Source: Cololabis saira
Taxonomy: Eukaryota > Chordata > Actinopteri > Beloniformes > Belonidae
DNA length: 64,000 nucleotides
Assembly: GCF_033807715.1 (NCBI RefSeq)
Contig: NC_084600.1
Coordinates: forward strand, 45,449,824 to 45,513,823
Direction: 5' to 3'
Positions 40,201 through 62,612 of the stretch are shown here, piece after piece (the stretch's first letter is position 1; each line of letters begins with the position of its first letter). The notes below the pieces were generated by a model. The model was not told the DNA's origin. It was given only the letters and a program-made list of their open reading frames with translations, and did no database searches. The position numbers and the translations under genes were made by a program.

Positions 40201-43200
40201 GTTCAAAAAACCTTGATATTTACTTAATGAGTGTTGTTAGAGGAACTGAGTTCATTGATTGGCTATTTATTTACAAATGTAGCCACAGATGAAGACAAAA
40301 TCAATCTTGTTTGGAAAAAAGCATTAAAAATCACAATAATCCAAGAATCGTGGCACCAATAATCGAATCGACAATCGTTATAATCGAAGAATCGAAGAAT
40401 CGATGAATCGAAGCTCCAATAATCGAAATCGAATCGAATCGTGAGGTTCCCTTGTTTGCACACCCCTATCATGTGATCATGTGAACTCTTATGAATGTTT
40501 ATGAACATTGGGTGAATGTGTGTATTCGACTTTAAAGCCGGCTCAACCCCGGCCTAAAATCAGCTTTAAAATGCCTCTTAAAATGGCCGCTTTGTGAAGA
40601 ACTACAAAGACCAACTTGCCTTGGGGGCGGCGCCTGAAGGGCGCGCGTCCAATCACTGGCCAGGCGCTGATGACGTCACGCAGCCCGCGGAGCACAAATC
40701 TCCGTTCTTCCAGAGCTGAGTTCTGGGTGATCAGTTTCATCTAGAGCGGTTCAGAGCTAAATTTTTGTTTAATGAAGTTACTGTTCGTATATAACTGTGT
40801 AACGCCGGCAATTACCGGCATCATTATTATTGTTTGTTTATTTTGTGGCGCCATTTTCCGCTAGTTATTCACGTTTTAAACGCTGTGTTTTGTCATCCCG
40901 TCTGGTTGCACGTGGCGTGGCGAGGGCGCCGCCATCTTTAAATACCACCATCGTTTTGTGTCACGTGTATATTGTTTTTGATTTCTTTTTCCATTCATGC
41001 AGTTAACGTTTTATTCGTATTGTTTTTCCTGATAGTGTTTATGTTTTTAATGTAGTTGCCATCAGAGTTTATTTGGGTATCGCTTTACCATCTGCTTGGT
41101 ACCTGATGTAAATAAATTCTGATTGATTTTAATGAGAAGTTGTTTGTGATGTTTTAGACATTGTGACATATTTCGTCACAATGGCTGAACTAGAACCGAA
41201 CTCTTTAAGAGCCTTCAACATTATTCACCAGAAATAACAGCCCTAACTGTTCTGGTGGAATAATCCATAATCTCTGAGACTGATTTCTGCTGTTAAAAGT
41301 AATCATTTTTCCTGGTTAAGGCCCAGGTGGTGCCCCTGCAAGAATGTCATTTTGATAATTCAATTTGATAAGTAATCTACCTTATTAATTATTAATAATT
41401 GTTGAATCATTATTAATAGTTCTTGATAACTGAACAGCGCTACTTGTTGCACAACATAATGGTGCCCCGTGTGAGGCTCTGAATAATTAACAGCATGTGA
41501 CGGAATTTGTGTGTATTCGACTTTAAAGCCGGCTCAACCCCGGCCTGAAATCAGCTTTAAAATGCCTCTTAAAATGGCCGCTTTGTGAAGAACTACAAAG
41601 ACCAACGTGCTTTGGGGCTACCTCCAGCTTGGTGAAGATGTTAGAGGTGTTTTTACCTGCGGGTGAGCTTGGAGGTTTTTTTCAGGTTTTTTTCGGGTGT
41701 GTTTCGGGTTTATTTTCGGGTTTGTTTAGGGTTTTTTAGTTTTTTTTCGGGTGTGTTTCGGGTTTTTTTCGGGTGTGTTTCGGGTTTGTTTCGGGTTTTT
41801 CGTTTTTTTTTCGGGTGTGTTTCGGGTTTGTTTAGGGTTTTTTCGGTTTTTTTGGGGTTTTTTTCAGGGTTTTTTCAGGGTTTTTTCGGGTGTGCTTCGG
41901 GTTTGTTTCGGGTTTATTCATATTCGGGTGTGTTTCGGGTTTTTTTGTTTTTTTTCGGGTGTGTTTCGGGTTTTTTCGTTTTTTTCGGGTGTGAAGATGT
42001 TGGAGATGTTTTTACCTGCGGGTGAGCTTGGAGGTCAGCTTGGTGAAGATGTTGGAGGTTTTAAGAGTGATATTTTTACCTGCGGGTGGTTTTATGTGTA
42101 TGTTTTTACCTGCGGGTGAGCTTGGAGGTCAGCTTGGTGAAGATGTTGGACGTGGCCCGGGTCCGGGCGTGGGGGAGAGGACTGGCTTCGTGGTGGGACA
42201 GCGTGGGGGACGTGGGGGGGCCGGAGTAGACCGGGGGGCCCCGGTCCCTCAGCTGGCCCCCGTGGAAGGTGCTGCGGATGGTGGAGCCCCTGGTGAGGCG
42301 GCACCGGTCCGAGGACGAGGACGAGGAAGCAGCTCCGGCTCCGGCCATGCTGAGGGTGGAAGGAGAGGCTGCTGGGAGACGGTGGCCCAGAGAGCTGCAG
42401 GAAAAAACCACAGAAGAAGAGGAGTTTTCTCAGGGAAATGAAGAAGAAGAGGAGCTTTCTCAGATAATCAGCATCAAGAGCTGCAGGAAACCACAGAAGA
42501 AGAGGAGCTTTATCGGATAATCAGGGAAACCACAGAAGAAGGGGAGCTTTCTCAGATAATCAGCATCAGTCCTTCAGAACTAAACCTGGTATTTCTCCAC
42601 ATTCATGCAGCTCAACATCCAGCCTGTAACTGCTTGAGGAAACTGCTGCGGCATTGTAGTCTAGAACCTCTGGTCCTCCTGACACCGCAGCAGAACCTCT
42701 GGTCCTCCTGACACCGCAGCAGAACCTCTGGTCCTCCTGACACCGCAGCAGAACCGTGGTCTGTCTATCCCTGGCAACCGCTCACGTCAAACTTACCGAA
42801 GCATTTCCAACGCAGCAGGCCCAGTATTTGGGCCTCTGCCGGTAAGTTTTGATACAACTTTTACTTCTCCCGTGTACACCGCAACTGTCTTCTCTCCGCT
42901 GCGGGCTCCTCTTGGAGCCCTCGCGAGTAAGTTTTGCTCTGAACCACCGGCTAAAGCAACTAGCTAGCTGCTCGCTACTCTGCCATTACTCGTTACTGGT
43001 CACCGCTGTTTTCCGTCCTCAGCCACCACCACCTCCACCTCAACAAGCTTACCTGCTGGATGTAGCATGCTGTGGCTAATCCTGTGGATATTCCTGGGGT
43101 TCTCGTCGCTCCTCTACACCCGGACCCTCGGCTCCTCGACGCTAGCTCTCGTTAGCTTCCAGCTACCGCTCTCGACCCGGACCATGCCGCCGCTCCACTC

Positions 43201-46200: not shown

Positions 46201-49200
46201 ATTCAAATCCCATCTCAAAACTCACCTTTACAGAACTGCTTTTAATGTGTGATTAATGTCCTGTCTCATGTTGTGTCCTTTTGTACTGTCCTGTGTAATT
46301 GTAATTTGTATTATGTGTTTTGTTTTAATGTAAAGCGTCTTTGAGTGCCCAGAAAAGCGCTATATAAATAAAATGTATTATTATTATTATTATTGTAACT
46401 GGGCGTCCTCCTCACACAAGACAAGACAACTGTCATGGTTCTGTCATGGTTTCACAGTTTCATAGGTTTTTTACAGTGTTACTGACTCTCCTGTCGTTCC
46501 AGATCCTCCACCCTCATCAGCCAGTAATCCACTCATTCCCTTCACCTGTGCTTCCCACCCAGCTCCACACCTGGTTTCCCTCATCAGTTCCCCTCATATA
46601 CCGGCCCTTTTCCACCTTTCGTTTGCCAGATTGTCGAGTGTTTTTGCCTCGCTTTCCAGCCTGATTCTGTTCTGTTTTCTGCCTGCCTGCCTGTCTGCGA
46701 CCCTGCCTGATTCCGGTTTTTGGATTTTGCCTGCCCCTCTGGATTCGTTTGCCCGGTTTGACCCCTGCCTGCCTTTTGACCCGAATAAAGCCTCTTGGAC
46801 TCTGATCTGCCTGGTGTTGTGCATTTGGGTTCTCTGTCCTGTCTGAGCCGTGACAACAACTCAGTTCTCTTGTATGTCCTGCTGCGCCAGTTACTCCTGT
46901 TTTTTGTGAAGGGGACAGCAATGCATTATTGAGATTTTTTACTGACAAAATGAAGACGATCAAGGAGAAAATCGCTCCCCTTTTGTGCGGAAGCCGTGCT
47001 GTCGTTGAGCCGTCTCCAGCTGGTGGTCCTCCTTTAGGTCTGGGACTGATATCTCAGCACTGGTGACCAAGATGAAACTCTCCTCTTGCTCATCGGACTT
47101 CCTTCCGTGTAGGATTTTTGTGGAAATGTTTGATGTAATTGATGTAACCCTGGGTTACCAAAATGGGTAACCTCTCTCTTTCTGCCGGTGTGTTTCCCAA
47201 TGCACTTAAGCATTAGCTATAGTGGAGCCTTTACTTAAAAATACAGACTTAGACCCGACTGTCCTCAGTCATTTCAGGCCGATCTCTAAGCTACCAATCC
47301 TGTCCAAGATCCTAGAGAAGGTACAGTAGTAGTAGTAGTAGTAATAGTAGTATTAGAGAAGGTACAGTCGTCTCTGAGAGCTGTCATTATTCCTGGATCA
47401 AAACAACATCCATGAGACATTTCAGTCGGGTTTCCGCAACCATCACTCTACGGAGACAAAGCCTTCCTGAAGAAGAAGGAACGAATCCGTACCTGTTGTC
47501 TTTGTGAAGAGCAAGTTTAAAGGTTTAAAGGTTTAAAGTTTGAGTACAAACCTGTTGTCTTTGCCGTTCTGCAGAAGCGAGTGCCGGTCGGCGCCGGATC
47601 GGTCCGTGCAAACGTAGGTGTTGCGGCGCGTCATGGTGCTGCCGGGGATGTTATTCTGGAAACAAGATAAAACCTGAGGTTAGAATAAAAACTATAAACT
47701 ATAAACCTGAGGTTAGGATTAAAACCTGAGGTTAGGATTAAAACTATAAACCTGAGGTTAGGATTAAAACTATAAACCTGAGGTTAGAATTAAAACTATA
47801 GTAGTAGTGCACCGTACTTTTCCTCGAGCTACGGTGCTAACGATGTGGGAATAAAACCAACAGCTGGGAATTCCATGCATTCCATGAAATCATGAAATCA
47901 CTGCAGCGAATGAAACGTGCGTCTGTGTTTTGACTCTTTATATGTATTTATATATATTTCAGTAATATTGATAGTGAATCTGGATACATGATAGGATTCC
48001 TCTAAGTGTCAGCTTTCATTAGAGGCTGGAATTATGACGTTGAAAGATTCAAGACTTATGCCCATGGTTATCCAAGTGTTTTTTGGCGTCTCCAAATGGC
48101 CATTTTTGGAAAGGTCTACACATACCGTATTGTCCCGAATATAAGACGACCCTGATTATAAGACGACCCTCTCTCTTTTTCAAGACTCAAGTTTGAAAAC
48201 ATAATTTTTTCTGTGCAGAAAAGGTTAAAGAAAAAAGAAAAAAAAAGACTTTTTGAACACCAAATTCAATTTTCATACAGAAAATAATGACAGTACATCT
48301 GAAACAAATGATTATAACAATATATTGGAGAGAAAAAGCCTGTTATTTTGCCTAATTGAAACCATCATGTTGAAGTTTGCATCATAACTTCTCCTCAGCT
48401 GCCGGTTCACCTGCCGAACTTCCACCCTCTTTTCTCCAGATTGTCGCTACGTTTCTCCACTTTCTGTTATCTCTTCTCTTATTTTCTTCTCTTTTCTTTC
48501 TTATACTATTTTTTATTTTTCTTCTTCGTGACAGGGGTTCACTTTGTCCTGGGGAGTTTAGTTCAGCATTCGCTTTAAAGATAAAGGCGCCATCTAGCGT
48601 TGTGAATGGGTATAACGTCTAGACCCCAATGTAAGACGACCCCACACTTTTTCAGTCTGATTCCAATGAAAAAAACACCGTCTGATATTCAGGACAATAC
48701 GGTAGTCTTACAAAAACCTGTGTAAAATACTAATTTTTTGTGGTATTCTTATCAAACTTGAACTTGCACTAGATAAGGCTTCAGGCTGTCTCATTGTGTT
48801 TTCCAGCTAATAAGTCAGAGATTCATCTGCAACATCTGGTTACAAAACTAATAAAAACCTTCTTTTTCAGTGTGTTCAAACTGAGATTACTGAATTATAG
48901 TAGCAGTTACAGTTACAGTTACAGTTACAGAGATTCTGACAGTTGGGAGAAAAACTTCAGAGTGTTTCCTTTCAAAAGAACCAGAACCATCGATGAACTG
49001 CAATCGGTTCAAGAACAGATTTACATTTACTTTGGGTTTAACTTGTATAGACTTTTAGGCAACTTTTACAGGAGTGGAAACGAGTGGCCAATCTTTTGGG
49101 TTGGTAGCCACGAATCACCGTGGTAGCCGTTTGACTCACCGTGGTAGCCGTTTGAACCCCGTGGTAGCCATTTGACCCCCCTTGGTAGCCGTTTGACTCA

Positions 49201-52200
49201 CCGTGGTAGCCGTTTGACTCACCGTGGTAGCCGTTTGACTCACCGTGGTAGCCGTTTGACTCACCGTGGTAGCCGTTTGACCCCCCTTGGTAGCCGTTTG
49301 ACCCCCCTTGGTAGCCGTTTGATTCACCGTGGTGGCCGTTTGACTCCCCGTGGTAGCCGTTTGACTCACCGTGGTAGCCGTTTGACTCACCGTGGTAGCC
49401 GTTTGACTCACCGTGGTAGCCGTTTGACTCACCGTGGTAGCCGTTTGACTCACCGTGGTAGCCGTTTGACTCACCGTGGTAGCCGTTTGACTCACCGTGG
49501 TAGCCGTTTGACTCACCGTGGTGGCCGTTTGACTCACCGTGGTAGCCATCATGACTCACCGTGGTAGCCGTTTGACTCACCGTGGTGGCCGTTTGACTCA
49601 CCGTGGTAGCCGTTTGACTCACCGTGGTAGCCGTTTGACTCACCGTGGTAGCCGTTTGACTCACCGTGGTAGCCGTTTGACTCACCGTGGTAGCCGTTTG
49701 ACTCACCGTGGTAGCCGTTTGACTCACCGTGGTAGCCGTTTGAACCCCGTGGTAGCCGTTTGACTCACCGTGGTAGCCGTTTGACTCACCGTGGTGGCCG
49801 TTTGACTCACCGTGGTAGCCGTTTGTCTCACCGTGGTAGCCGTTTGACTCACCGTGGTAGCCGTTTGACTCACCGTGGTAGCCGTTTGACTCACCGTGGT
49901 AGCCGTTTGACTCACCGTGGTAGCCGTTTGACTCACCGTGGTAGCCGTTTGACTCACCGTGGTAGCCGTTTGACTCACCGTGGTAGCCGTTTGACTCACC
50001 GTGGTAGCCGTTTGACTCACCGTGGTAGCCGTTTGACTCACCGTGGTAGCCGTTTGACTCACCGTGGTAGCCGTTTGACTCACCGTGGTGGCCGTTTGAC
50101 TCACCGTGGTAGCCGTTTGACTCACCGTGGTAGCCGTTTGACTCACCGTGGTAGCCATCATGACTCACCGTGGTAGCCGTTTGACTCACCGTGGTAGCCG
50201 TTTGACTCACCGTGGTAGCCGTTTGACTCACCGTGGTAGCCGTTTGACCCCCCTTGGTAGCCGTTTGACTCACCGTGGCAGCCATCATGACTCACTGTGG
50301 TGGCCGTTTGACTCACCGTGGTAGCCGTTTGACTCACCGTGGTAGCCGTTTGACTCACCGTGGTAGCCGTTTGAACCCCTTGGTAGCCGTTTGACTCACT
50401 GTGGTAGCCGTTTGAATCCCGTGGTGGCCGTTTGACTCACCGTGGTGGCCGTTTGACTCACCATGGTAGCCGTTTGAATCCCGTGGTGGCCGTTTGACTC
50501 ACCGTGGTAGCCGTTTGACTCACCGTGGTGGCCGTTTGACTCACCATGGTAGCCGTTTGAATCCCGTGGTGGCCGTTTGACTCACCGTGGTGGCCGTTTG
50601 ACTCACCGTGGTAGCCGTTTGACTCACCGTGGTAGCCGTTTGACTCACCGTGGTAGCCGTTTGACTCACCGTGGTAGCCATTTGACTCACCATGGTAGCC
50701 GTTTGACTCACCGTGGTAGCCGTTTGACTCACCGTGGTAGCCATCATGACTCACCGTGGTGGCCGTTTGACTCACCGTGGTAGCCGTTTGACTCACCGTG
50801 GTAGCCGTTTGACTCACCGTGGTAGCCGTTTGACTCACCGTGGTAGCCGTTTGACTCACCGTGGTAGCCGTTTGACTCACCGTGGTAGCCGTTTGACTCA
50901 CCGTGGTGGCCGTTTGACTCACCGTGGTAGCCATCATGACTCACCGTGGTAGCCATCATGACTCACCGTGGTAGCCGTTTGACTCACTGTGGTAGCCGTT
51001 TGACTCACCGTGGTAGCCATCATGACTCACCGTGGTAGCCGTTTGACTCACCGTGGTAGCCATCATGACTCACCGTGGTAGCCGTTTGACTCACCGTGGT
51101 AGCCGTTTGACTCACCGTGGTAGCCATCATGACTCACCGTGGTAGCCGTTTGACTCACCGTGGTAGCCATCATGACTCACCGTGGTGGCCGTTTGACTCA
51201 CCGTGGTAGCCGTTTGACTCACCGTGGTGGCCGTTTGACCCACCGTGGTAGCCGTTTGACTCACCATGGTAGCCGTTTGACTCACCGTGGTAGCCGTTTG
51301 ACTCACCGTGGTAGCCGTTTGACTCACCATGGTAGCCGTTTGACTCACCGTGGTAGCCGTTTGACCCCCCTTGGTAGCCGTTTGACTCACCGTGGTAGCC
51401 GTTTGACTCACAGTGGTAGCCGTTTGACCCCCCTTGGTAGCCGTTTGACTCACCGTGGTAGCCGTCATGTCCTTGCGGCGGTCGGGGATCTCCGACTTGT
51501 TGGGGTTGTTAGCGCTGCTAACCATGGGGCTAGAGGGCGGCAGGCTGTGGCTACCCATCACGCTGCAGCTAGCTTTCCTGGACGGCATCCGGCCCTCGCG
51601 CAGCTCCCGCTCGCCGGCGCTGGTCGGGCTGCGCTTGGGCTGCATGACGGGCATGGAGGGCCCGCCTTTGTTGTGGAGGACAGAAGAGACACACGAGACG
51701 GAATAAGGGATATTCTGATGGTAACGAGACACGTAAGGGATATTCTGATGGTAACGGAATATTCTGATGGTAACGAGACACGTAAGGGATATTCTGATGG
51801 TAACAGGAATATTCTGATGGTAACGACACTCGTAAGGAATATTCTGATGGTAACGAGACACGTAAGGGATATTCTGATGGTAACGAGACAATCATGAGGA
51901 ATATTCTGATGGTAACGTTGTGGAGGACAGAAGAGACACACGAGACGGAATAAGGAATATTCTGATGGTAACGAGACACGTAAGGAATATTCTGATGGTA
52001 ACGGAATATTCTGATGGTAACGAGACACGTAAGGAATATTCTGATGGTAACGGAATATTCTGATGGTAACAAGACACTCATAAGGAATATTCTTACGGCA
52101 GGAAGTGCTGCTGTTACCATGGTAACAACTCCCCTTCCCAACGGCAGGAAGGGACGTGTGCGCTCTTAATAGTACGTCCGAATTAATGCTACTACTGATA

Positions 52201-55200
52201 TTTAGTGCCGAACTTAAGTAAACTTTTTAGTCTGGCATTTCGGACGCACCGCAAGATTCCTTGCAAACTTCAAATTCATGTTCCATTTGATGGGGATAGT
52301 AAAAGGAGTAACCCAGGGCTCATATTGGGGTTTTTAAAAACCTGAATATGAGCAAATTCTGGTTATTCAAAGGGGTTATTGGTGTTTACATGGCCGTGGA
52401 ACCAGGTTATTGATCATATTCGGGTTTTAAAAGGGTTATTGATGCTGGAAACGCAGTCACGCCAGAGCAGAGACATGTTAGAGACATGTTAGAGACATGT
52501 TAGAGACACGTTAGAGACATGTTAGAGACACGTTAGAGACATGTTAGAGACATGTTAGAGACACGTTAGAGACAGAAGACACGTTAGAGTCTCGTCAGAG
52601 CAGAGACGTGTTAGAGACATGTTACAGACATGTTAGAGACACGTTAGAGACAGAAGTCTCATCAGAGCAGAGACTCGTTAGAGACATGTTAGAGACATGT
52701 TAGAGACATGTTAGAGACACGTTAGAGACACGTTAGAGACATGTTAGAGACATGTTAGAGACACGTTAGAGACACGTTAGAGACATGTTAGAGACATGTT
52801 AGAGACAGAAGTCTCGTCAGAGCAGAGACTCACAGAAGTCGCTGTGTCTTCTCTGCCGGTGGTACGTGGACGTGCTGCGCTGCGTCTTGCTGTGCGAGGA
52901 CGAGGTGGAGGACGAGGACGAGCCGGTGGCCGACGAGTGCTTGTTGGTTCCGTTGGTGATGGCGTTGGTCCGAACCCGGGCCAGGGACAGACTGCTGGCG
53001 GTCCGGGCGTCGCTGCTCTCCTACAGGCCCGGGACAGGAGGATAAGAGTCAGAAAAGAGTCAGAAAAGAGTCAGAAAAGAGTCAGAAAAGAGTCAGAAAA
53101 GAGTCAGAAAATAGTCAGAAAAGAGTCAGAAAAGAGCCAGAAAAGAGTCAGAAAAGAGTCAGAAAAGAGTCAGAAAAGTATCAGAAAAGAGTCAGAAATG
53201 TGTCAGAAAAGAGTCAGAAAAGTATCAGAAAAGTGTCAGAAAAGTATCAGAAAAGAGTCAGAAAAGAGCCAGAAAAGAGTCAGAAAAGACTTAGAAAAGT
53301 ATCAGAAAAGAGTCAGAAAAGAGTCAGAAAATAGTCAGAAAAGTGTCAGAAAAGAGTCAGAAAAGAGTCAGAAAAGAGTCAGAAAAGAGTCAGAAAAGAG
53401 TCAGAAAAGAGTCAGAAAAGAGTCAGAAAAGAGTCAGAAAAGTATCAGAAATGTGTCAGAAAAGAGTCAGAAAAGAGTCAGAAAAGTATCAGAAAAGAGT
53501 CAGAAAAGAGTCAGAAAAGTGTCAGAAAAGTATCAGAAAAGAGTCAGAAAAGACTCAGAAAAGTATCAGAAAAGAGTCAGAAAAGAGTCAGAAAAGTATC
53601 AGAAAAGAGTCAGAAAAGAGTCAGAAAAGAGTCAGAAAAGTATCAGAAAAAGTGTCAGAAAAGAGTCAGAAAAGAGTCAGAAAAGAGTCAGAAAAGAGTC
53701 AGAAAAGAGTCAGAAAAGAGTCAGAAAAGTATCAGAAAAGAGTCAGAAAAGAGTCAGAAAAGAGTCAGAAAAGAGTCAGAAAAGAGTCAGAAAAGAGTCA
53801 GAAAAGAGTCAGAAAAGAGTCAGAAAAGTATCAGAAAAGTATCAGAAAAGAGTCAGAAAAGAGTCAGAAAAGAGTCAGAAAAGTATCAGAAAAGAGTCAG
53901 AAAAGTATCAGAAAAGAGTCAGAAAAGAGTCAGAAAAGAGTCAGAAAAGAGTCAGAAAAGAGTCAGAAAAGAGTCAGAAAAGTATCAGAAAAGAGTCAGA
54001 AAAGAGTCAGAAAAGAGTCAGAAAAGTATCAGAAAAGTATCAGAAAAGAGTCAGAAAAGAGTCAGAAAAGTGTCAGAAAAGAGTCAGAAAAGAGTCAGAA
54101 AAGTATCAGAAAAGAGTCAGAAAAGAGTCAGAAAAGAGTCAGAAAAGAGTCAGAAAAGTATCAGAAAAGAGTCAGAAAAGAGTCAGAAAAGAGTCAGAAA
54201 AGAGTCAGAAAAGAGTCAGAAAAGAGTCAGAAAAGAGTCAGAAAAGTATCAGAAAAGAGTCAGAAAAGTGTCAGAGAAGAGTCAGAAAAGAGTCAGAAAA
54301 AGTATCAGAAAAGAGTCAGAAAAGAGTCAGAAAAGAGTCAGAAAAGAGTCAGAAAAGAGTCAGAAAAGAGTCAGAAAAGAGTCAGAAAAGAGTCAGAAAA
54401 GAGTCAGAAAAGAGTCAGAAAAGAGTCAGAAAAGAGTCAGAAAAGAGTCAGAAAAGAGTCAGAAAAGTATCAGAAAAGAGTCAGAAAAGAGTCAGAAAAG
54501 TATCAGAAAAGTATCAGAAAAGAGTCAGAAAAGAGTCAGAAAAAGTATCAGAAAAGAGTCAGAAAAGAGTCAGAAAAGAGTCAGAAAAGTATCAGAAAAG
54601 AGTCAGAAAAGAGTCAGAAAAGTATCAGAAAAGTATCAGAAAAGAGTCAGAAAAGAGTCAGAAAAAGTATCAGAAAAGAGTCAGAAAAGAGTCAGAAAAG
54701 AGTCAGAAAAGAGTCAGAAAAGTATCAGAAAAGAGTCAGAAAAGAGTCAGAAAAGAGTCAGAAAAGAGTCAGAAAAGTATCAGAAAAGAGTCAGAAAAGA
54801 GTCAGAAAAGTGTCAGAAAAGAGTCAGAAAAGTATCAGAAAAGAGTCAGAAAAGAGTCAGAAAAGAGTCAGAAAAGTATCAGAAAAGTATCAGAAAAGAG
54901 TCAGAAAAGAGTCAGAAAAGAGTCAGAAAAGAGTCAGAAAAGAGTCAGAAAAGTATCAGAAAAGAGTCAGAAAAGAGTCAGAAAAGAGTCAGAAAAGAGT
55001 CAGAAAAGTATCAGAAAAGTATCAGAAAAGAGTCAGAAAAGAGTCAGAAAAAGTATCAGAAAAGAGTCAGAAAAGAGTCAGAAAAGAGTCAGAAAAGAGT
55101 CAGAAAAAGTGTCAGAAAAAGTGTCAGAAAAGAGTCAGAAAAGAGTCAGAAAAGAGTCAGAAAAGAGTCAGAAAAGTATCAGAAAAGTATCAGAAAACAG

Positions 55201-56274
55201 TCAGAAAAGAGTCAGAAAAGAGTCAGAAAAGAGTCAGAAAAGTATCAGAAAAGTATCAGAAAACAGTCAGAAAACAGTCAGAAAAGAGTCAGAAAAGAGT
55301 CAGAAAAGAGTCAGAAAAGTATCAGAAATGTGTCAGAAAAGAGTCAGAAAAGAGTCAGAAAAGAGTCAGAAAAGAGTCAGAAAAGAGTCAGAAAAGAGTC
55401 AGAAAAGAGTCAGAAAAGAGCCAGAAAAGAGTCAGAAAAGAGTCAGAAAAGAGTCAGAAAAGAGTCAGAAAAGAGCCAGAAAAGAGTCAGAAAAGAGTCA
55501 GAAAAGAGTCAGAAAAGAGTCAGAAAAGAGTCAGAAAAGTATCAGAAAAGTATCAGAAAAGAGTCAGAAAAGAGCCAGAAAAGAGTCAGAAAAGAGTCAG
55601 AAAAGAGTCAGAAAAGAGTCAGAAAAGAGTCAGAAAAGAGTCAGAAAAGAGTCAGAAAAGTATCAGAAAAGAGTCAGAAAAGAGTCAGAAAAGAATCAGA
55701 AAAGAGTCAGAAAAGAGTCAGAAAAGAGTCAGAAAAGTATCAGAAAAGAGTCAGAAAAGAGTCAGAAAAGAGTCAGAAAAGAGCCAGAAAAGAGTCAGAA
55801 AAGAGTCAGAAAAGAGTCAGAAAAGAGTCAGAAAAGAGTCAGAAAAGAGTCAGAAAAGAGTCAGAAAAGAGTCAGAAAAGTCCGGGCGTCGCTGCTCTCC
55901 TACACCCACCGGGAAAGGCACAAGGGGAATGAGGAATACGAACAAATTCCGGTTATTCAAAGGGGTTATTGGCGTTTCCATGGCTGTGTAACCGGTTATT
56001 ACCAATATTCCGGTTAGAAAAGTCTTATTGATGCTGGAAACGCAGTCCCAGTTGTTGACAGAGCTGAATCTTTACGAGCCCTTCGGGCTTCGTTCCCTGC
56101 ACACCACGGTTTTATAAAACATTTGTGCTATATAAATAAAAGAAATGAAATAAGAGAAACTCACGTCTCCTTTCCGGCCCAGCAGCAGGTACGTGGCCGT
56201 CACCTCGTTGTATTTCTGGTTGAGCAGAGCGTCTTTGATTTCCTCTGAGGTGAAGCCCATTCCCACCATCACCT
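36849..56274 (-). CDS. mark4: MAP/microtubule affinity-regulating kinase 4, 3' two-thirds
   Basis: Ser/Thr kinase of the MARK/Par-1 family that phosphorylates tau/MAP2/MAP4-type proteins. Eight exons are present: UBA (56165-56274), the spacer (52834-53020, 51454-51665, 47552-47655, 42110-42349), a switch exon (39212-39294), 38441-38485 and the final KA1 exon (36849-37242). The N-terminal kinase domain is upstream of the window. Recognition rests on [102 protein letters not shown] and [11 protein letters not shown], which resemble human MARK4 as I remember it. All junctions are GT-AG and phases agree. It is convergent with ckm. Its introns are packed with tandem arrays, many anchored at splice sites. 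Confidence 0.93.
37243..37640. other. mark4 last intron, unassigned part
   Basis: No exon. It may be the upstream part of the retroviral remnant that follows, but no domain was recognised. Confidence 0.35.
37641..37882 (+). pseudogene. Endogenous retrovirus env 3' fragment
   Basis: The frame at 37649-37879 shows [14 protein letters not shown] followed by a long hydrophobic segment and a short polar tail. This is the membrane-anchor and cytoplasmic-tail layout of a retroviral transmembrane subunit. Only this C-terminal piece is recognisable; no fusion peptide, gag or pol is seen nearby. It is antisense to mark4. Identification is by layout and composition only. Confidence 0.4.
37929..37992. 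mobile_element. Palindromic MITE, short copy 2
   Basis: GGTTAACGCGTAACCTAC...GTAGGTTACGCG then TTTAACGCGGAACCATAAAT CAG; a shortened relative of 35646-35757. Confidence 0.65.
37993..38440. other. mark4 intron DNA with a probable repeat
   Basis: Contains GGGGTAGTGG direct repeats and a GGGATTGGCCCTTAC edge near 38390-38405 that looks like a transposon end. Nothing firmer. Confidence 0.35.
38441..38485 (-). CDS. mark4: mark4 exon, 45 nt, dual-frame
   Basis: Acceptor CCACAG, donor GTGAGT. After the 83-nt exon it reads (R)[14 protein letters not shown], nearly identical to the human short-isoform sequence I recall ([15 protein letters not shown]). If the 83-nt exon is skipped it reads [13 protein letters not shown], the counterpart of the human long-isoform stretch. 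Length is a multiple of three, so it does not itself switch frame. Confidence 0.88.
38490..38535. repeat. GAGGTCAGTTA triplicate near mark4 acceptor
   Basis: TTAGAGGTCAG tandem copies about 20-50 bp from the exon edge. Confidence 0.75.
38640..38995 (+). repeat. 49-bp minisatellite in mark4 intron, 6-7 copies
   Basis: CTTACAGCATGCAGACGCTA plus CCATGAACCGTTCACCACTT recur. Highly homogeneous, non-coding. Confidence 0.95.
39212..39294 (-). CDS. mark4: mark4 83-nt switch exon
   Basis: Acceptor AACCAG, donor GTAAGT. It adds [27 protein letters not shown] after SKLTRR, matching the human short-isoform segment DPSKRQNSNRCVSGASLPQG as I remember it. 83 is not a multiple of three, so its inclusion or skipping chooses the reading frame of both following exons. 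In human MARK4 the S/L isoforms are known to arise by skipping one exon. Confidence 0.88.
39340..39440 (+). repeat. G-rich tract with telomere-like core in mark4 intron
   Basis: GGAGGAGGAGGACGAGG, GGGGGGTTAGGGG and GGGTTAGGGTTAGGGTTAGG. It is about 50 bp upstream (in transcript) of the 83-nt exon, so on - it is C-rich polypyrimidine. Confidence 0.8.
39818..40468. mobile_element. Non-autonomous hAT element in mark4 intron
   Basis: Left TAGAGGTGGGTGCAATT, right TTGTTTGCACACCCCTA; interior rich in AATCGA repeats near the right end. Flanks TCATGTGG (39810-39817) and TCATGTGA (40469-40476) are an 8-bp target duplication with one mismatch. Resembles the partial element at 139-249. Confidence 0.75.
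40517..41456 (+). mobile_element. Putative LTR of an LTR retrotransposon
   Basis: Starts TGTGTGTATTCGACTTTAAA, ends GTTGCACAACA, and is followed by TGGTGCCCCGTGTGAGG at 41460, which looks like a primer-binding site. The first about 110 bp recur at 41508-41618, as a second, truncated LTR would. No gag or pol. Boundaries are inferred. Confidence 0.5.
41508..41618 (+). mobile_element. Truncated second LTR
   Basis: Near-identical to 40517-40627 (GACTTTAAAGCCGGCTCAAC, AATGGCCGCTTTGTGAAGAA). It then breaks off into a copy of mark4 exon-edge sequence. Confidence 0.6.
41628..42109 (-). repeat. Three decoy copies of a mark4 donor, plus array
   Basis: The end of exon 42110-42349 with its donor (CTCACCCGCAG|GTAAAAA) recurs near 41656, 42016 and 42080 (the last with an altered exon part), all on the intron side of the genuine donor at 42109. 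Between the first two lies a TTTCGGGTGTG array. Confidence 0.88.
41670..41995 (+). repeat. TTTCGGGTGTG minisatellite, locus 4 (mark4 intron)
   Basis: Same unit family as the three arrays around the ckm 5' end, about 25 kb away. Confidence 0.9.
42110..42349 (-). CDS. mark4: mark4 spacer exon, RSTFHGGQ
   Basis: 240 nt. Acceptor CCCTCAG, donor GTAAAA. Encodes a Ser run, [33 protein letters not shown] and [15 protein letters not shown], hallmarks of MARK4 between UBA and KA1. The Ser/Arg-rich block may be phospho-regulated, by analogy. Confidence 0.93.
42395..42565 (+). repeat. Imperfect repeat near mark4 acceptor
   Basis: GCAGGAAACCACAGAAGAAG, AGGAGCTTTCTCAG and ATAATCAG recur three times, starting about 45 bp from the exon edge. 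Confidence 0.8.
42663..42755 (+). repeat. 29-bp repeat, 3 copies
   Basis: AGAACCTCTGGTCCTCCTGA plus CACCGCAGC in tandem. Confidence 0.9.
42774..46395 (+). mobile_element. L2/CR1-type LINE, probably full length
   Basis: GC-rich 5' leader (start approximate), a single 1061-residue ORF2 and a short 3' end AAAGCGTCTTTGAGTGCCC ending in (ATT)n at about 46375-46394. It lies antisense in a mark4 intron. No ORF1 found. The 5' boundary and target duplication are not determined. Confidence 0.8.
43067..46252 (+). CDS. LINE ORF2: endonuclease-reverse transcriptase
   Basis: Uninterrupted 1061 codons. The APE-type endonuclease occupies about residues 125-330 (NTRSL near 128, [16 protein letters not shown] near 260, SDHLAI near 322). 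Reverse transcriptase follows at about 560-830 ([67 protein letters not shown] and the catalytic YADD near 780). A C-terminal domain has [12 protein letters not shown] and [10 protein letters not shown]. Order and motifs fit the fish L2/CR1 group. The start ATG is the first in frame; MPPLHS or MFSYNF could be used instead. All catalytic motifs look intact, so the copy is potentially active. Confidence 0.92.
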   Translation: MLWLILWIFLGFSSLLYTRTLGSSTLALVSFQLPLSTRTMPPLHSAAAHHPRPTPGPLWQNHPPHSRSGRMFSYNFTSPNSIPSFWSSCRPATSLRHHNKHNLSNLRPLPQSSQPITKQHHLKLALFNTRSLNNKSLLLNEFITDNNLDFLCLTETWHKPLDYFSLNQATPPNFTYMEQARAEGRGGGVAAIYRKDIKATSIPIPVIPSFEHTAFKLPGPTPLVTAVIYRPPKPNPSFLSDLSDFLTQLCSISPSVLLLGDFNFHINDPNCKPAAEFLDLLHCLNFTQHVDFPTHARGHTLDLVCSTGLTINQLSSLNLHVSDHLAIIMDINIPIPTPKEARKISFRNIRSISPSALSASLATQMSASPPPSPDNPSDLVDYYNHTLSSCLDQLAPIKTKTVSFARSAPWYTPELRKLKSRKRQLERLCKKSGLTVHQLAYTDHLHQYKDALNSARSTYFSNIIHSDSSNPKALFSTINKLLKPSDNISNSFTVSKCNDFLSFFQSKIQTIYSNLTTSSAPSTSPPVSPPSTTQPLSHFSPMSSASLSTVMMGMKTSSCALDPIPSTFIKNCLPAISPLIINIVNSSFSSGSVPDTLKLAAVTPILKKPGLNPDTMNNFRPISNLPFLSKILERAVATQLKTHLTSNDLFETFQSGFRSRHSTETALIKVTNDLLLSSDSGNLSILLLLDLTAAFDTISHTILLSRLESSLYITGSALSWLKSYLTNRHQFISINNCSSSTAPLSQGVPQGSVLGPLLFILYMLPLGNIIRRHRLHFHCYADDVQLYISTKSLTSATHSTLTNCLAEIKSWMHSNFLQLNYNKSDMLIIGPKSLTKTAHNFTLTMDNSILSPSTHIRNLGVILDSNLSFQHHVNHITRTAFFHLKNIARLRPSLSFSTAETLIHAFITSRLDYCNSILYGSTSKVLNKLQYIQNSAARLLTHTRSRDHITPVLQKLHWLPIPQRIHFKILLLTHKALHNQAPCYLTDLLHRYTPSRSLRSSDANLLSLPVRTKHRTWGDRAFSIAAPTLWNSLPKNIRDCTDLPAFKSHLKTHLYRTAFNV
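46431..46855 (+). mobile_element. Solo LTR
   Basis: TGTCATGGTTCTG...CTGAGCCGTGACA, i.e. 5' TGTCA and 3' TGACA ends, flanked by perfect 5-bp ACAAC at 46426-46430 and 46856-46860. A TATA-like CATATA near 46593 and AATAAA near 46785 mark U3/R. This is what remains after LTR-LTR recombination of a Gypsy- or ERV-type element. Inserted just past the LINE tail. Confidence 0.88.
46900..47480 (+). pseudogene. Decayed LINE reverse-transcriptase fragment
   Basis: [21 protein letters not shown] sequence near 47270-47325 and [15 protein letters not shown] near 47415-47460, interrupted by a (GTA)n run. These are the same RT motifs as in 43067-46252, but an older, separate copy with frameshifts. Confidence 0.65.
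47552..47655 (-). CDS. mark4: mark4 spacer exon, [10 protein letters not shown]
   Basis: 104 nt. Acceptor TTTCCAG, donor GTTTGT. Encodes [34 protein letters not shown] plus two bases that join the next exon as Ser. Human MARK4 has [20 protein letters not shown] here. Confidence 0.93.
47664..47802. repeat. 27-bp repeat beside mark4 exon, about 5 copies
   Basis: AAACCTGAGGTTAGGATTAA plus AACTAT repeats starting about 10 bp from the acceptor side of exon 47552-47655. Confidence 0.9.
47803..48122. other. mark4 intron, nothing recognised
   Basis: No exon or repeat family seen. Confidence 0.35.
48123..48704 (+). mobile_element. TA-target element, complete copy 2
   Basis: TA, CCGTATTGTCCCGAATATAA ... 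GATATTCAGGACAATACGG, TA. It carries an internal segment (near 48195-48245) that the 34191-34709 copy lacks or has in shorter form. Confidence 0.8.
48705..49102. other. mark4 intron, nothing recognised
   Basis: A short CAGTTA repeat lies at 48901-48930. Otherwise unassigned up to the array. Confidence 0.35.
49103..51453 (-). repeat. 21-bp array of mark4 5' splice sites, about 110 units
   Basis: On the transcribed strand the unit is GGCTACCACG|GTGAGTCAAAC, which is the end of exon 51454-51665 plus its donor. The array begins exactly at the donor and fills the first 2.35 kb of the intron. Most units keep GTGAGT; a minority read AAGGGGGGTC or ACGGGGTTC and have lost it. 22-bp units (GTGAGTCATGATGG) recur in the proximal part. 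The long open frames on both strands are products of the unit. Confidence 0.95.
51454..51665 (-). CDS. mark4: mark4 spacer exon, KRSPTS / RKASC
   Basis: 212 nt. Acceptor ACAACAAAG (weak pyrimidine tract), donor GTGAGT. Encodes [60 protein letters not shown] and [11 protein letters not shown]. The frame stays open past the donor as VSQTATK and so on, down to a stop at 51127. Confidence 0.93.
51706..52095. repeat. About 30-bp array before mark4 acceptor, with acceptor-region duplicate
   Basis: Units of GGAATATTCTGATGGTAACG AGACACGTAA. TTGTGGAGGACAGAAGAGAC, the sequence just upstream of the acceptor, occurs both at its genuine position (51671) and as a copy at 51918. Confidence 0.9.
52096..52311. 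other. mark4 intron spacer
   Basis: Nothing recognised apart from a duplicated AACGGCAGGAAGG/TACGGCAGGAAG motif. Confidence 0.35.
52312..52460. repeat. Dispersed short repeat, copy B
   Basis: CAGGGCTCATATTGG, GGTTATTCAAAGGGGTTATT and GATGCTGGAAACGCAGTC, as in copy A (466-612) and copy C. Confidence 0.65.
52461..52833 (-). repeat. TTAGAGACATG array after mark4 donor, with donor-flank copies
   Basis: 11-bp units TTAGAGACATG/TTAGAGACACG. The intron start after the donor (GTCTCTGCTCTGACGAGAC on -) is copied near 52585-52610, 52650-52675 and 52462-52475. The array starts within 40 bp of the genuine donor. Confidence 0.9.
52834..53020 (-). CDS. mark4: mark4 spacer exon, [10 protein letters not shown]
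   Basis: 187 nt. Acceptor GCCTGTAG, donor GTGAGT. Encodes [33 protein letters not shown], a Ser tract, [20 protein letters not shown] and DF plus T, completing Cys with the next exon. Human MARK4 has [15 protein letters not shown] here. Confidence 0.93.
53041..55878. repeat. 11-bp array AGTCAGAAAAG, about 255 units, mark4 intron
   Basis: On the transcribed strand the unit reads CTTTTCTGACT, a pyrimidine run plus CTGAC, which fits the vertebrate branch-point consensus. Variants: GTATCAG (13 bp), GTGTCAG, GAGCCAG, CAGTCAG. It lies 20 bp from the acceptor of exon 52834-53020. The 1073-codon open frame (K/R/E/S-rich) exists only because the unit lacks stops in all three frames. Confidence 0.95.
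55879..55925 (-). repeat. Duplicate of mark4 exon start beyond the 11-bp array
   Basis: TCCGGGCGTCGCTGCTCTCC TACA repeats 53002-53025, the first about 20 bp of exon 52834-53020 with its acceptor TGTAG. The array is thus bracketed by two copies of the junction. Confidence 0.93.
55926..56050. repeat. Dispersed short repeat, copy C
   Basis: ACAAATTCCGGTTATTCAAA, GGGGTTATTGGCGTTTCCAT and GATGCTGGAAACGCAGTCCC; third copy of the family at 466-612 and 52312-52460. B and C bracket the exon and 11-bp array. Confidence 0.65.
56165..56274 (-). CDS. mark4: mark4 UBA-domain exon
   Basis: 110 nt. Acceptor TTCTGGTTTCAG, donor GTGAGT. Encodes [20 protein letters not shown] and [16 protein letters not shown], the UBA-like domain that packs on the kinase domain in MARK proteins. 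It ends in phase 0 and joins ESSDAR. Confidence 0.95.
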
Positions 56275-56289
56275 CTGAAACCAGAAGAG

Positions 56290-59200
56290 ACGGTTAAAAA
56301 CCATGAACCAGGACCAGGTCTGGTGGTAAAACCCTGAACCGGGACCAGGTCTGGTGGTAAAACCCTGAACCAGGACCAGGTCTGGTGGTAAAACCCTGAA
56401 CCAGGACCAGGTCTGGTGGTAAAACCCTGAACCAGGACCAGGTCTGGTGGTAAAACCCTGAACCAGGACCAGGTCTGGGGGTAAAACCCTGAACCAGGAC
56501 CAGGTCTGGTGGTAAAACCCTGAACCAGGACCAGGTCTGGGGGTAAAACCCTGAACCGGGACCAGGTCTGGGGATAAAACCCTGAACCGGGACCAGGTCT
56601 GGTGGTAAAACCCTGAACCAGGACCAGGTCTGGTGGTAAAACCCTGAACCAGGACCAGGTCTGGTGGTAAAACCCTGAACCAGGACCAGGTCTGGTGGTA
56701 AAACCCTGAACCAGGACCAGGTCTGGGGGTAAAACCCTGAACCAGGACCAGGTCTGGTGGTAAAACCCTGAACCGGGACCAGGTCTGGTGGTAAAACCCT
56801 GAACCAGGACCAGGTCTGGTGGTAAAACCCTGAACCAGGACCAGGTCTGGTGGTAAAACCCTGAACCAGGACCAGGTCTGGTGGTAAAACCCTGAACGGA
56901 CCAGGTTTGGTGGTAAAACCCTGAACCAGGACCAGGTCTAAGGATAAAACCCTGAACCAGGACCAGGTCTGGTGGTAAAACCCTGAACCAGGACCAGGTC
57001 TGGTGGTAAAACCATGAACCAGGACCAGGTCTGGTGGTAAAACCATGAACCAGGACCAGGTCTGGTGGTAAAACCATGAACCAGGACCAGGTCTGGTGGT
57101 AAAACCATGAACCAGGACCAGGTCTGGTGGTAAAACCATGAACCAGGACCAGGTCTGGTGGTAAAACCCTGAACCAGGACCAGGTCTGGTGGTAAAACCA
57201 TGAACCAGGACCAGGTCTGGTGGTAAAACCATGAACCAGGACCAGGTCTGGGGGTAAAACCCTGAACCAGGACCAGGTCTGGGGGTAAAACCCTGAACCA
57301 GGACCAGGTCTGGTGGTAAAACCATGAACCAGGACCAGGTCTGGGGGTAAAACCCTGAACCAGGACCAGGTCTGGTGGTAAAACCATGAACCAGGACCAG
57401 GTCTGGTGGTAAAACCATGAACCAGGACCAGGTCTGGGGGTAAAACCCTGAACCAGGACCAGGTCTGGTGGTAAAACCATGAACCAGGACCAGGTCTGGT
57501 GGTAAAACCATGAACCAGGACCAGGTCTGGTGGTAAAACCCTGAACCAGGACCAGGTCTGGGGGTAAAACCATGAACCAGGACCAGGTCTGGGGGTAAAA
57601 CCCTGAACCAGGACCAGGTCTGGTGGTAAAACCCTGAACCAGGACCAGGTCTGGTGGTAAAACCCTGAACCAGGACCAGGTCTGGTGGTAAAACCCTGAA
57701 CCAGGACCAGGTCTGGTGGTAAAACCCTGAACCAGGACCAGGTCTGGTGATAAAACCCTGAACCAGGACCAGGTCTGGGGGTAAAACCCTAAACCAGGAC
57801 CAGGTCTGGTGGTAAAACCCTGAACCAGGACCAGGTCTGGTGGTAAAACCCTGAACGGACCAGGTCTGGTGGTAAAACCCTGAACCAGGACCAGGTCTGG
57901 TGGTAAAACCCTGAACCAGGACCAGGTCTGGTGATAAAACCCTGAACCAGGACCAGGTCTGGTGATAAAACCCTGAACCAGGACCAGGTCTGGTGGTAAA
58001 ACCCTGAACCAGGACCAGGTCTGGTGGTAAAACCCTGAACCAGGACCAGGTCTGGTGGTAAAACCCTGAACCAGGACCAGGTCTGGTGATAAAACCATGA
58101 ACCAGGACCAGGTCTGGTGGTAAAACCCTAAACCAGGACCAGGTCTGGTGATAAAACCATGAACCAGGACCAGGTCTGGGGGTAAAACCATGAACCAGGA
58201 CCAGGTCTGGTGGTAAAACCCTGAACGGACCAGGTCTGAGGATAAAACCATGAACCAGGACCAGGTCTGGTGGTAAAACCCTAAACCAGGACCAGGTCTG
58301 GTGATAAAACCCTGAACCAGGACCAGGTTTGGTGGTAAAACCCTGAACCAGGACCAGGTCTGAGGGTAAAACCCTAAACCAGGACCAGGTCTGGTGATAA
58401 AACCCTGAACCATGAACCAGGTCTGGTGGTAAAACCATGAACCGGGACCAGGTCTGGTGGTAAAACCATGAACCAGGACCAGGTCTGGTGGTAAAACCCT
58501 GAACCAGGACCAGGTCTGGTGGTAAAACCATGAACCAGGACCAGGTCTGGTGGTAAAACCATGAACCAGGACCAGGTCTGGTGGTAAAACCCTGAACCGG
58601 GACCAGGTCTGGTGGTAAAACCCTGAACCAGGACCAGGTCTGGGGGTAAAACCCTGAACCAGGACCAGGTCTGGTGGTAAAACCCTGAACCAGGACCAGG
58701 TTTGGTGGTAAAACCCTGAACCAGGACCAGGTCTGAGGATAAAACCCTGAACTGGGACCAGGTCTGAGGATAAAACCCTGAACCAGGACCAGGTCTGGTG
58801 GTAAAACCCTGAACCAGGACCAGGTCTGAGGATAAAACCCTGAACCAGGACCAGGTCTGGTGGTAAAACCATGAACCAGGACCAGGTCTGGTGGTAAAAC
58901 CCTGAACCAGGACCAGGTCTGGTGGTAAAACCCTGAACCAGGACCAGGTCTGAGGATAAAACCCTGAACCAGGACCAGGTCTGGTGGTAAAACCCTGAAC
59001 CAGGACCAGGTCTGGTGGTAAAACCCTGAACCAGGACCAGGTCTGAGGATAAAACCCTGAACCAGGACCAGGTCTGGTGGTAAAACCCTGAACCAGGACC
59101 AGGTCTGGTGGTAAAACCATGAACCAGGACCAGGTCTGGTGGTAAAACCCTGAACCAGGACCAGGTCTGGTGGTAAAACCCTGAACCAGGACCAGGTCTG

Positions 59201-61345
59201 GTGGTAAAACCCTGAACCAGGACCAGGTCTGGTGGTAAAACCCTGAACCAGGTCTGGTGGTAAAACCATGAACCAGGACCAGGTCTGGTGGTAAAACCCT
59301 GAACCAGGACCAGGTCTGGTGGTAAAACCCTGAACCAGGACCAGGTCTGGTGGTAAAACCCTGAACCAGGTCTGGTGGTAAAACCATGAACCAGGACCAG
59401 GTCTGGTGGTAAAACCCTGAACCAGGACCAGGTCTGGTGGTAAAACCCTGAACCAGGACCAGGTCTGGTGGTAAAACCCTGAACCAGGACCAGGTCTGGT
59501 GGTAAAACCATGAACCGGGACCAGGTCTGGTGGTAAAACCCTAAACCAGGACCAGGTCTGGTGGTAAAACCATGAACCGGGACCAGGTTTGGTGGTAAAA
59601 CCCTGAACCAGGACCAGGTCTGGTGGTAAAACCCTGAACCGGGACCAGGTCTGGTGGTAAAACCATGAACCGGGACCAGGTTTGGTGGTAAAACCCTGAA
59701 CCAGGACCAGGTCTGGTGGTAAAACCCTGAACCGGGACCAGGTCTGGTGGTAAAACCATGAACCGGGACCAGGTTTGGTGGTAAAACCCTGAACCAGGAC
59801 CAGGTCTGGTGGTAAAACCATGAACCGGGACCAGGTCTGGAGGTAAAACCCTGAACCAGGACCAGGTCTGGTGGTAAAACCCTGAACCAGGACCAGGTCT
59901 GGTGGTAAAACCCTGAACCAGGACCAGGTCTGGTGGTAAAACCATGAACTGGGACCAGGTCTGAGGATAAAACCCTGAACCAGGACCAGGTCTGGTGGTA
60001 AAACCCTGAACCAGGACCAGGTCTGGTGGTAAAACCCTGAACCAGGACCAGGTCTGGGGGTAAAACCATGAACCAGGACCAGGTCTGGTGGTAAAACCCT
60101 GAACCGGGACCAGGTCTGGTGGTAAAACCCTGAACCAGGACCAGGTCTGGTGGTAAAACCATGAACCAGGACCAGGTCTGGTGGTAAAACCCTGAACCAG
60201 GACCAGGTCTGGTGGTAAAACCCTGAACCGGGACCAGGTCTGGTGGTAAAACCATGAACCAGGACCAGGTCTGGGGGTAAAACCCTGAACCAGGACCAGG
60301 TCTGGTGGTAAAACCCTGAACCAGGACCAGGTCTGGTGGTAAAACCATGAACCGGGACCAGGTCTGGTGGTAAAACCCTGAACCAGGACCAGGTCTGGTG
60401 GTAAAACCCTGAACGGACCAGGTCTGGTGGTAAAACCCTGAACGGACCAGGTCTGGTGGTAAAACCCTGAACCAGGACCAGGTCTGGTGGTAAAACCCTG
60501 AACCAGGACCAGGTCTGGTGGTAAAACCATGAACCAGGACCAGGTCTGGGGGTAAAACCATAAACCAGGACCAGGTCTGGTGGTAAAACCATGAACCAGG
60601 ACCAGGTCTGGTGGTAAAACCATGAACCAGGACCAGGTCTGGGGGTAAAACCATGAACCAGGACCAGGTCTGGTGGTAAAACCATGAACCAGGACCAGGT
60701 CTGGGGGTAAAACCATGAACCGGGACCAGGTCTGGTGGTAAAACCCTAAACCGGGACCAGGTCTGGTGGTAAAACCATGAACCGGGACCAGGTCTGGTGG
60801 TAAAACCCTGAACCAGGACCAGGTCTGGTGGTAAAACCCTGAACCAGGACCAGGTCTGGTGGTAAAACCATGAACCAGGACCAGGTCTGGTGGTAAAACC
60901 CTGAACCAGGACCAGGTCTGGTGATAAAACCCTGAACCAGGACCAGGTCTGGTGGTAAAACCCTGAACCAGGACCAGGTCTGGGGGTAAAATCCTGAACC
61001 AGGACCAGGTCTGGTGGTAAAACCCTAAACCGGGACCAGGTCTGGTGGTAAAACCCTGAACCAGGACCAGGTCTGGTGGTAAAACCCTGAACCAGGACCA
61101 GGTCTGGTGGTAAAACCATGAACCAGGACCAGGTCTGGTGGTAAAACCATGAACCAGGACCAGGTCTGGTGGTAAAACCATGAACCAGGACCAGGTCTGG
61201 TGGTAAAACCATGAACCAGGACCAGGTCTGGGGGTAAAACCCTGAACCGGGACCAGGTCTGGTGGTAAAACCATGAACCGGGACCAGGTCTGGTGGTAAA
61301 ACCCTGAACCAGGACCAGGTCTGGTGGTAAAACCCTGAACGGACC
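56290..61345. repeat. 31-bp array, about 160 units, mark4 intron
   Basis: Unit AACCAGGACCAGGTCTGGTG plus GTAAAACCCTG, with variants CATGAACC, CCGGGACC, GGGGGTAAAA, GAGGATAAAA and a 28-bp short form CTGAACGGACCAGG. On the transcribed strand each unit holds CCTGGTCCTGGTTCAG|GG, resembling a 3' splice site. The array ends 15 bp from the UBA exon acceptor. The 1460-1470 codon open frames on - are unit artefacts. Confidence 0.95.
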
Positions 61346-61347
61346 AG

Positions 61348-62612
61348 GGGCCTCATTTAAAATGGACTGCGTAGGATTCATACTAAAAGTGCACGTACGC
61401 TCAAAAGCCGAAAATGCCGTGCGCAAAAAAAAATCCGGATCAATAAAACCATGTGCACGCAGACTTCCACGCAGTCCAGCTGGAAGGTTGCGTAGCTGAA
61501 TCCGCCCCTTTACACGCCCAGAAATGCATATGGATGAGCCTGCTGAGCATGCGCAGTGGCTTTCTGCAGCCTGTTTGGCGCAGATCCATGGTTTGGCGTC
61601 AGAATTAATTAGAAGTAGCAGCCACCGTGACACTGACTTTCACGGAGACAGAGATGTTGTAGATGATGTGGAGGACAGGAAAACCACATTATTTGGTGGT
61701 CACAGTAAAAGTTAGAATAAGTATATAAATAGTATACAATAAAATAAAGCGAGTGAGTGGCAGCACGCCGTTGCTGCGCTAAACGCCGTGAGTTCCCCGG
61801 CGCAACAGGGGGACACACGTCCCCCCGTCTTTTCAAAATCATGTTTTTTTTCCCTTACTTTTTACAGTTTAAAAACTAACGGTAGGATCAGCCTTAAATT
61901 GCAAATTATCAAGACACTGTATGAAAGCGATACGAGAAAGGCCCGGCAGCCCCGCTCCCCCTCCTCCTCTCTCCCCTCAGAGCGGCTCAGGGCGGGTTTA
62001 TGGTTCCGCGTCACCGATGCAGAGCCTACGGCGTAGGTGCGCGTCGCCGCGTACCCTACGCCGTAGGCTCTGCGTCGTTTAACGCGGGACCCTAATTTAG
62101 GCACCATATACAAGCAGCACGTAAAGGTTTCACGCGCGCGTAAAACTCATATATATGAAAAAAAATCTGTGTCCCTTTAGGGAAGAAATGAGGGGCTCCG
62201 TGGGGCTCCCTAAACGCAGCCCCTCATTCGTTCTGTCCTAAAGCGGTGCAGAGGAGGCTGCAGCTCCAGTAGCTCCAGAGTCCTGACTGACAGCTTCACA
62301 CACAGAGGGACACGATCAGGGCTATTTTATTTTATTTTATTATTTTATTATTTTAAGCCTGACATATGTTGTGATGTGTGATGACATTATTAAGAGTATG
62401 ACATGAATCTGGCTTCATTTCACCACCTCACAGCCTGCGTCGCCAGTTCCCCGTGTCTTAAGTAAATTCTTACGGGAGGGTCCGAGTTGCCGTAAAGATA
62501 CGCAGATTTTTCGGTTAGTTTTTTCTTTTTAGATCCGAGGATTTGCGTAGAAGGTGGCTTCCGCAACTTTCAGGCGCTTTTTCTGCGCAAGCAAGCTTTA
62601 TAGATGAGGCCC
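61348..62612. mobile_element. GGGCCTCAT-ended element inside the 31-bp array, copy 1
   Basis: Ends GGGCCTCATTT and AGATGAGGCCC with CAG on both sides (61345-61347, 62613-62615), a 3-bp target as in PIF/Harbinger-type elements (inference). Sub-terminal GCGTAGGATTC / CGCACGGCATTTTCGGCTT-type motifs. Inserted into the short array unit CTGAACGGACCAGG. Carries a nested palindromic MITE (61993-62095). No transposase. Confidence 0.7.
61993..62095. mobile_element. Palindromic MITE, copy 3 (nested)
   Basis: GGTTTATGGTTCCGCGTCAC, CAGAGCCTACGGCGTAGG and inverted CCTACGCCGTAGGCTCTGCG; same family as 35646-35757. Confidence 0.75.

Follow-up and report, generated by a model that had tools for sequence, protein, structure and literature searches.

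Which 5′ splice site is used when an exon is followed by a long series of copies of its own donor? The question is raised by mark4 in a 64,000-nucleotide (nt) stretch of Cololabis saira DNA, referred to here as the window, which contains no N bases. At the end of one mark4 exon, designated e3, the genuine donor is at the same time the first base of a minisatellite. This donor array abutting the genuine mark4 donor is real. The features concerned are the following.

51665-51454, minus strand: mark4 exon e3, 212 nt, ending KDMTATT in phase 0 (tblastn, junction reading, homologues).
51448..51453, minus strand: genuine 5′ splice site GTGAGT (ACG/GTGAGT, the slash marking the junction), base 1 of array unit 1 (alignment, junction reading).
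49112..51453, minus strand: minisatellite, 112 units of about 21 nt, GTGAGTCAAACGGCTACCACG (wrap-around alignment, Tandem Repeats Finder).
47655-47552, minus strand: mark4 exon e4, acceptor TTTCCAG/AAT (tblastn, junction reading).

The end of exon e3 reads GACATGACGGCTACCACG. The donor GTGAGT runs from 51453 and is joined to 47655 in phase 0. The array was split into units by wrap-around alignment starting from donor base 51453, and Tandem Repeats Finder (TRF) was also run. The original prediction, a note made from the sequence before this analysis, had counted about 110 tandem units beginning exactly at the real donor, and both methods agree with it: 112 units were obtained by alignment, with 51453 as base 1 of unit 1, and 111.8 copies of a 21-base-pair (bp) unit by TRF (49115-51465, 92% matches). 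Most units (95) are 21 nt long; 10 have 22 nt, 6 have 20 nt, and a single 7-nt piece stands at the end. GTGAGT opens 95 of the 112 units, so that most units do retain it as had been claimed; GT opens 99/112 and is missing from the start of the other 13. GTGAGTCAAACGGCTACCACG is the most frequent unit, with 61 occurrences. An identical 11-nt donor is carried by 86 sites, the genuine one included, and the proposed ladder of near-identical donors is thus present. In the remaining ~61,640 nt of the window, GTGAGT occurs 10 times on the plus strand and 31 times on the minus strand, and there are zero occurrences of ACGGTGAGT. Because GTGAGT is so sparse and ACGGTGAGT is absent in the rest of the window, the donor array lies far beyond chance.

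Short-unit arrays are generally difficult to assemble, and the array could have been misplaced or its length invented by the assembly. The window, however, is free of N, the units vary irregularly and the unit plainly resembles the adjoining exon end. An artefact of this kind is extremely improbable.

The gene is mark4, spliced to the acceptor at 47655 as predicted. Its 3′ half lies on the minus strand as six exons, the last one closing with a stop. Exons were placed by tblastn with human MARK4 as the query, and their borders were then set by junction reading. The four exons not listed above are as follows.

56274-56165, minus strand: mark4 exon (tblastn and junction reading).
53020-52834, minus strand: mark4 exon e2 (tblastn and junction reading).
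42394-42110, minus strand: mark4 exon e5, donor CGCAG/GTAAAA (tblastn, junction reading).
37242-36849, minus strand: last mark4 exon, with stop (tblastn, junction reading).

When joined, the six exons form an open reading frame. The joined protein carries the Pfam domains UBA (27.8 bits, cut-off 22.4) and KA1 (33.4 bits, cut-off 23), and also matches solved PDB chains of MARK1-4. The homologue matches listed are the best 120 of 2969. At full coverage the best of them come from percomorph fishes, with 84-85% identity for proteins from Seriola, Channa, Echeneis, Liparis and Sparus among others, and several bear the name MARK4, such as that of Channa argus (84% at full coverage). Some of the listed matches reach 90-94% identity over 70-73% of the query, and some of the listed UniRef rows bear the name MARK3. 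No convincing kinase-domain exon was found by tblastn in the 64-kb window; its expected position is beyond 64000.

The end of exon e3 was compared in 183 homologues fetched from among the matches listed, of which 181 were readable across the exon end, P0044 and P0100 falling outside the reading pattern. MTATTNNIPGS[A/T] is present at this position in 150/181. The 21-nt unit reproduces the final 12 bases of the exon exactly, and the 22-nt unit agrees at 15 of the last 16. The unit had been described as the last 10 bp of the exon plus intron sequence; its derivation in part from the exon holds, and the length is corrected to 12 exon bases in a 21-nt unit. Conservation of the exon end among fish MARK4 homologues points to the exon as the source of the array units. 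This end of the exon is thus old as well as conserved, and the copies in the intron are its likely derivatives. Edit distances over 22 nt at the junction are 1 between the exon and the 22-nt type, 2 between the exon and the 21-nt type, and 3 between the two types. The exon is therefore intermediate between the two unit families, which fits a common source. The array was probably seeded by a tandem duplication of about 22 bp across the junction, 16 of them from the exon and followed by GTGAGT, with later expansion and homogenisation of the units inside the intron. Both the extent of this initial duplication and the order of copying, from exon to intron, are inferred. The array has probably arisen by ordinary repeat expansion.

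If the genuine donor is read through, the reading frame continues into the array.

51175..51411, minus strand: ten extra GTGAGT donors that would lengthen the open frame by 42-273 nt (frame reading).
51127..51129, minus strand: first in-frame stop, TGA, upon read-through of the exon into the array (frame reading).

The frame had been predicted to stay open past the donor until a stop at 51127, adding VSQTATT-type heptapeptides. Both points are borne out by the TGA at 51129-51127 and by the translation past the donor, which consists of VSQTATT-like heptads. Early decoy donors were further expected to give in-frame variants. Such variants are possible for the ten extra donors only: of the 95 GTGAGT donors, 11 are in frame and open (the real one and ten extra), 2 precede the stop but shift the frame, and 82 lie past it. 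The ten would add 14-91 residues. Seven of them read ACG/GTGAGT like the genuine site, two ATG and one ACT; over all 95 GTGAGT sites the non-ACG variants are 5 ATG, 3 ACA and 1 ACT. Donor strength was calculated as the RNA duplex energy against the 5′ end of U1. The genuine donor at 51453 forms a duplex of -9.4 kcal/mol, the second strongest of the 11 genuine donors of mark4 and of the neighbouring gene CKM. The RNA fold of the exon end with about 14 units (354 nt) gave z = -2.05, with 2/100 shuffles as stable, which is a weak effect.

The array could also act as a brake on expression. U1 would occupy the copies, far donors would win, the stop at 51129-51127 would be included, the mRNA would be degraded and array length would set the dose of MARK4. 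The position of 82/95 GTGAGT donors behind the stop agrees with this, as does the preference for intron-proximal sites at high U1 occupancy. Against it, selection should disfavour an array that removes most MARK4 output, and the six exons in the window are open when joined. Such a brake is considered very unlikely.

The reading we regard as moderately probable is that of a neutral, exon-seeded minisatellite in which the real donor is dominant and some splicing leaks to the near in-frame copies. Most of the mRNA would come from the genuine donor at 51453, which is the first to be transcribed and delimits a 212-nt exon, farther copies giving ever longer exons. A minority of transcripts may use near copies, by which 14 to 91 in-frame residues would be added to the MARK4 spacer. 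Use of far copies would include the stop and could lead to nonsense-mediated decay.

Several observations weigh against this reading. The first frame-shifting unit is number 14, and the probability of 13 units without one by chance is 0.12; the in-frame stretch is therefore no sign of selection. When 5′ splice sites are duplicated and U1 fills all of them, the intron-proximal site is often chosen, which would favour far copies. VSQTA or SQTAT occurs in 0/183 of the fetched homologues, the best of which has 85% full-length identity. In a protein search for the heptads, 7993 candidates sharing most words with the query (lengths ~287-911 residues) were scored. No VSQTATT-heptad protein was found among them at E values up to 0.001; the search was incomplete, as ordinary MARK4 was also absent from the candidates, the repeat words probably crowding the list. 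A MARK4 with many heptads would be expected to share most words and hence to be a candidate. The absence of heptads from the proteins searched speaks against annotated use, as far as homologues of at best 85% full-length identity can indicate. Moreover, 174/181 readable homologues have the usual length at the exon e3 junction.

Selection for the frame or for the donors was considered separately and rejected. With the run probability of 0.12, and with GTGAGT absent from 3/14 of the first units vs 17/112 of all units, no sign is seen either way.

The other 7/181 homologues deviate in length or sequence at the junction, all of them as annotated models.

P0121 (Esox lucius), P0122 (Oncorhynchus keta) and P0049 (name starting 'Salm'): VRNSE added after MTATT.
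P0058 (Coregonus): VRNSEVGR added.
P0131 (Neogobius): 28-residue insert.
P0051 (Gadus morhua): VSVRT replacing NNIPGS.
P0041 (Echeneis): three residues fewer.

Judged from these protein sequences, an extension at the junction is an exception in annotated fish MARK4. Esox is also represented without the VRNSE addition (P0053, P0061). The VRNSE models suggest an old alternative donor, which would lie 15 nt downstream. They also indicate that an extension at this junction is tolerated elsewhere.

Taken further, the ladder could be functional, with substantial use of alternative donors and a MARK4 spacer whose length varies between tissues and individuals. The ten extra open in-frame GTGAGT donors, 7/10 with the genuine ACG/GTGAGT, argue for it, together with the pike and salmonid models that extend the same exon end and the precedent of human IFI6, in which two downstream repeat units act as donors (PMC4526556). 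The lack of a heptad protein among the 7993 scored candidates argues the other way, and the open-frame stretch is compatible with chance. Substantial use of this kind is unlikely.

The setting of the array is rich in repeats. The share of tandem arrays of period at least 6 is 38% for the window as a whole, 36% within the span of mark4 and 20% within that of CKM. The repetition of splice junctions was assessed for the 11 donors and 12 acceptors of mark4 and CKM. With centred 20-mers and copies sought within 700 bp, 4/11 donors and 1/12 acceptors were repeated; when a shift of up to 6 nt was allowed, the numbers were 5/11 and 2/12, vs fractions of 0.38 among 3000 sampled intron points and 0.08 among 2191 exon points handled in the same way. 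With 22-mers, in three splits and at two distances, 4/11 donors were repeated in every setting and 0, 0, 1, 1, 1 and 2 of 12 acceptors. The corresponding controls, 800 intron points and 800 exon points, gave 285/800 and 271/800 for introns, and 40/800 and 36/800 for exons. A targeting of splice junctions by repeats was therefore rejected, junctions being repeated no more than intron points, as expected of neutral capture. With some 38% of the window taken up by tandem repeats and no preference for junctions, the position of the donor array needs no special cause. Repeats seem to form anywhere and to persist where the coding sequence survives, exon edges included.

In the strictest form of neutrality, solely 51453 joins 47655 and the copies are silent intron DNA. 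The placement of the array is in line with the general repeat load of the introns, and the genuine donor is strong and closest to the exon. But 85 further sites carry the identical 11-nt donor, and their full silence would demand a strong proximity rule. A strictly inert array is accordingly unlikely, and a neutral array with limited leakage is preferred.

Further junction copies were collected by a loose count, which has no control of its own; the CKM exon 6 donor and the CKM exon 3 acceptor drop out of the 22-mer test.

18333-26249, plus strand: CKM gene, neighbour of mark4 in the window.
41651..42121, minus strand: mark4 exon e5 donor, four copies, one with 3 mismatches in 18 (loose count).
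18488-18780, plus strand: CKM exon 1 donor and some 40 bases of the exon, 3 copies (loose count).
19945-20161, plus strand: CKM exon 2 acceptor with the exon head, 4 copies (loose count).
21647-21805, plus strand: CKM exon 3 acceptor-like array, 31-bp unit, 5 copies, four with 3-4 mismatches (TRF, loose count).
21929-22240, plus strand: CKM exon 3 donor-like array, 42- and 57-bp units, 6 copies with at most 4 mismatches (TRF, loose count).
Plus strand: CKM exon 6 donor, 2 copies, the second with 3 mismatches (loose count).

Long minisatellites also lie outside both genes, at 1387-4680 and 32163-33513 (48-bp and 24-bp units). A 31-bp array of about 164 copies (56297-61348) stops 22 nt before the acceptor of the mark4 exon at 56274-56165.

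A second ladder, a feature separate from the donor array, is found before exon e2.

53044-55880, minus strand: 11-bp array of about 257 units, TTCTGACTCTT, most of the intron upstream of e2 (TRF, motif count).

TTCTGAC, which we take to be a branch-point-like motif, occurs 199 times in this array, and in the rest of the window 5 times on the minus strand and 4 times on the plus strand. Over its 2837 nt the array is 79% pyrimidine with 2 AG, and its end lies 23 nt ahead of the e2 acceptor. This acceptor has an AG-free zone of 267 nt, compared with 16-57 nt at the other 11 acceptors. The six yTnAy motifs nearest e2 lie 23, 29, 40, 51, 62 and 73 nt from the exon. A copy of the e2 acceptor with the first 20 exon bases is present at the far end of the array (55880-55905, minus strand). 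We infer that the array may supply the branch point of e2. A bolder reading is that MARK4 has two natural ladders of core splicing signals, one of 95 GTGAGT donors and one of 199 branch-point-like motifs, that the donor array is a landing strip for U1, and that the array lengths of individuals lead to differing sets of spacer isoforms. This reading as a whole is unlikely.

Donor choice among equals appears to have been studied mostly with small numbers of artificial copies. In mark4, a conserved gene of vertebrates carries 86 identical 11-nt donors at mostly 21-nt steps, with built-in variants, and the RNA of one fish would allow donor use to be plotted against distance. The locus also represents a repeat-rich stretch in which whole splice junctions have been copied into introns while the coding exons are still readable.

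In related systems, different parts of this arrangement are found. The pike and salmonid VRNSE addition concerns the same exon end and is in frame beyond MTATT, but it is one short extension and not a tandem array, and is known from models only. Intronic tandem repeats in percomorph fish are described for gilthead seabream, where the GH unit TGACCTGTCTSTCTCTC (13-17 bp) varies in number in the GH introns, the intron-1 array is repressive in reporter assays, and an intron-1 allele of MSTN-2 has an additional predicted acceptor, as given in the passages available (PMC3045353, PMC5133863). In contrast to mark4, no copied splice donor is described in those passages for GH. In the literature searched, most subscription papers being outside its coverage, no second donor-bearing minisatellite besides IFI6 was found. 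The IFI6 unit is 12 nt, compared with 21-22 nt in the ~112 units of mark4. The IFI6 minisatellite is reportedly the subject of a paper by Turri, Cuin and Porter (1995, Nucleic Acids Res 23:1854). Three mRNAs arise from human IFI6 (6-16, G1P3) through the use of two downstream repeat units as donors (PMC4526556). As in the mark4 array, the minisatellite units contain splice-donor sequence. IFI6 is an unrelated gene of another lineage, and donor use is reported for it, whereas the mark4 copies are putative donors read from sequence. The mark4 array starts directly at the true donor of a protein-coding exon, and its near units can keep the frame. Human IFI6 is the closest precedent, and the mark4 array is a new, long member of the rare donor-minisatellite kind.

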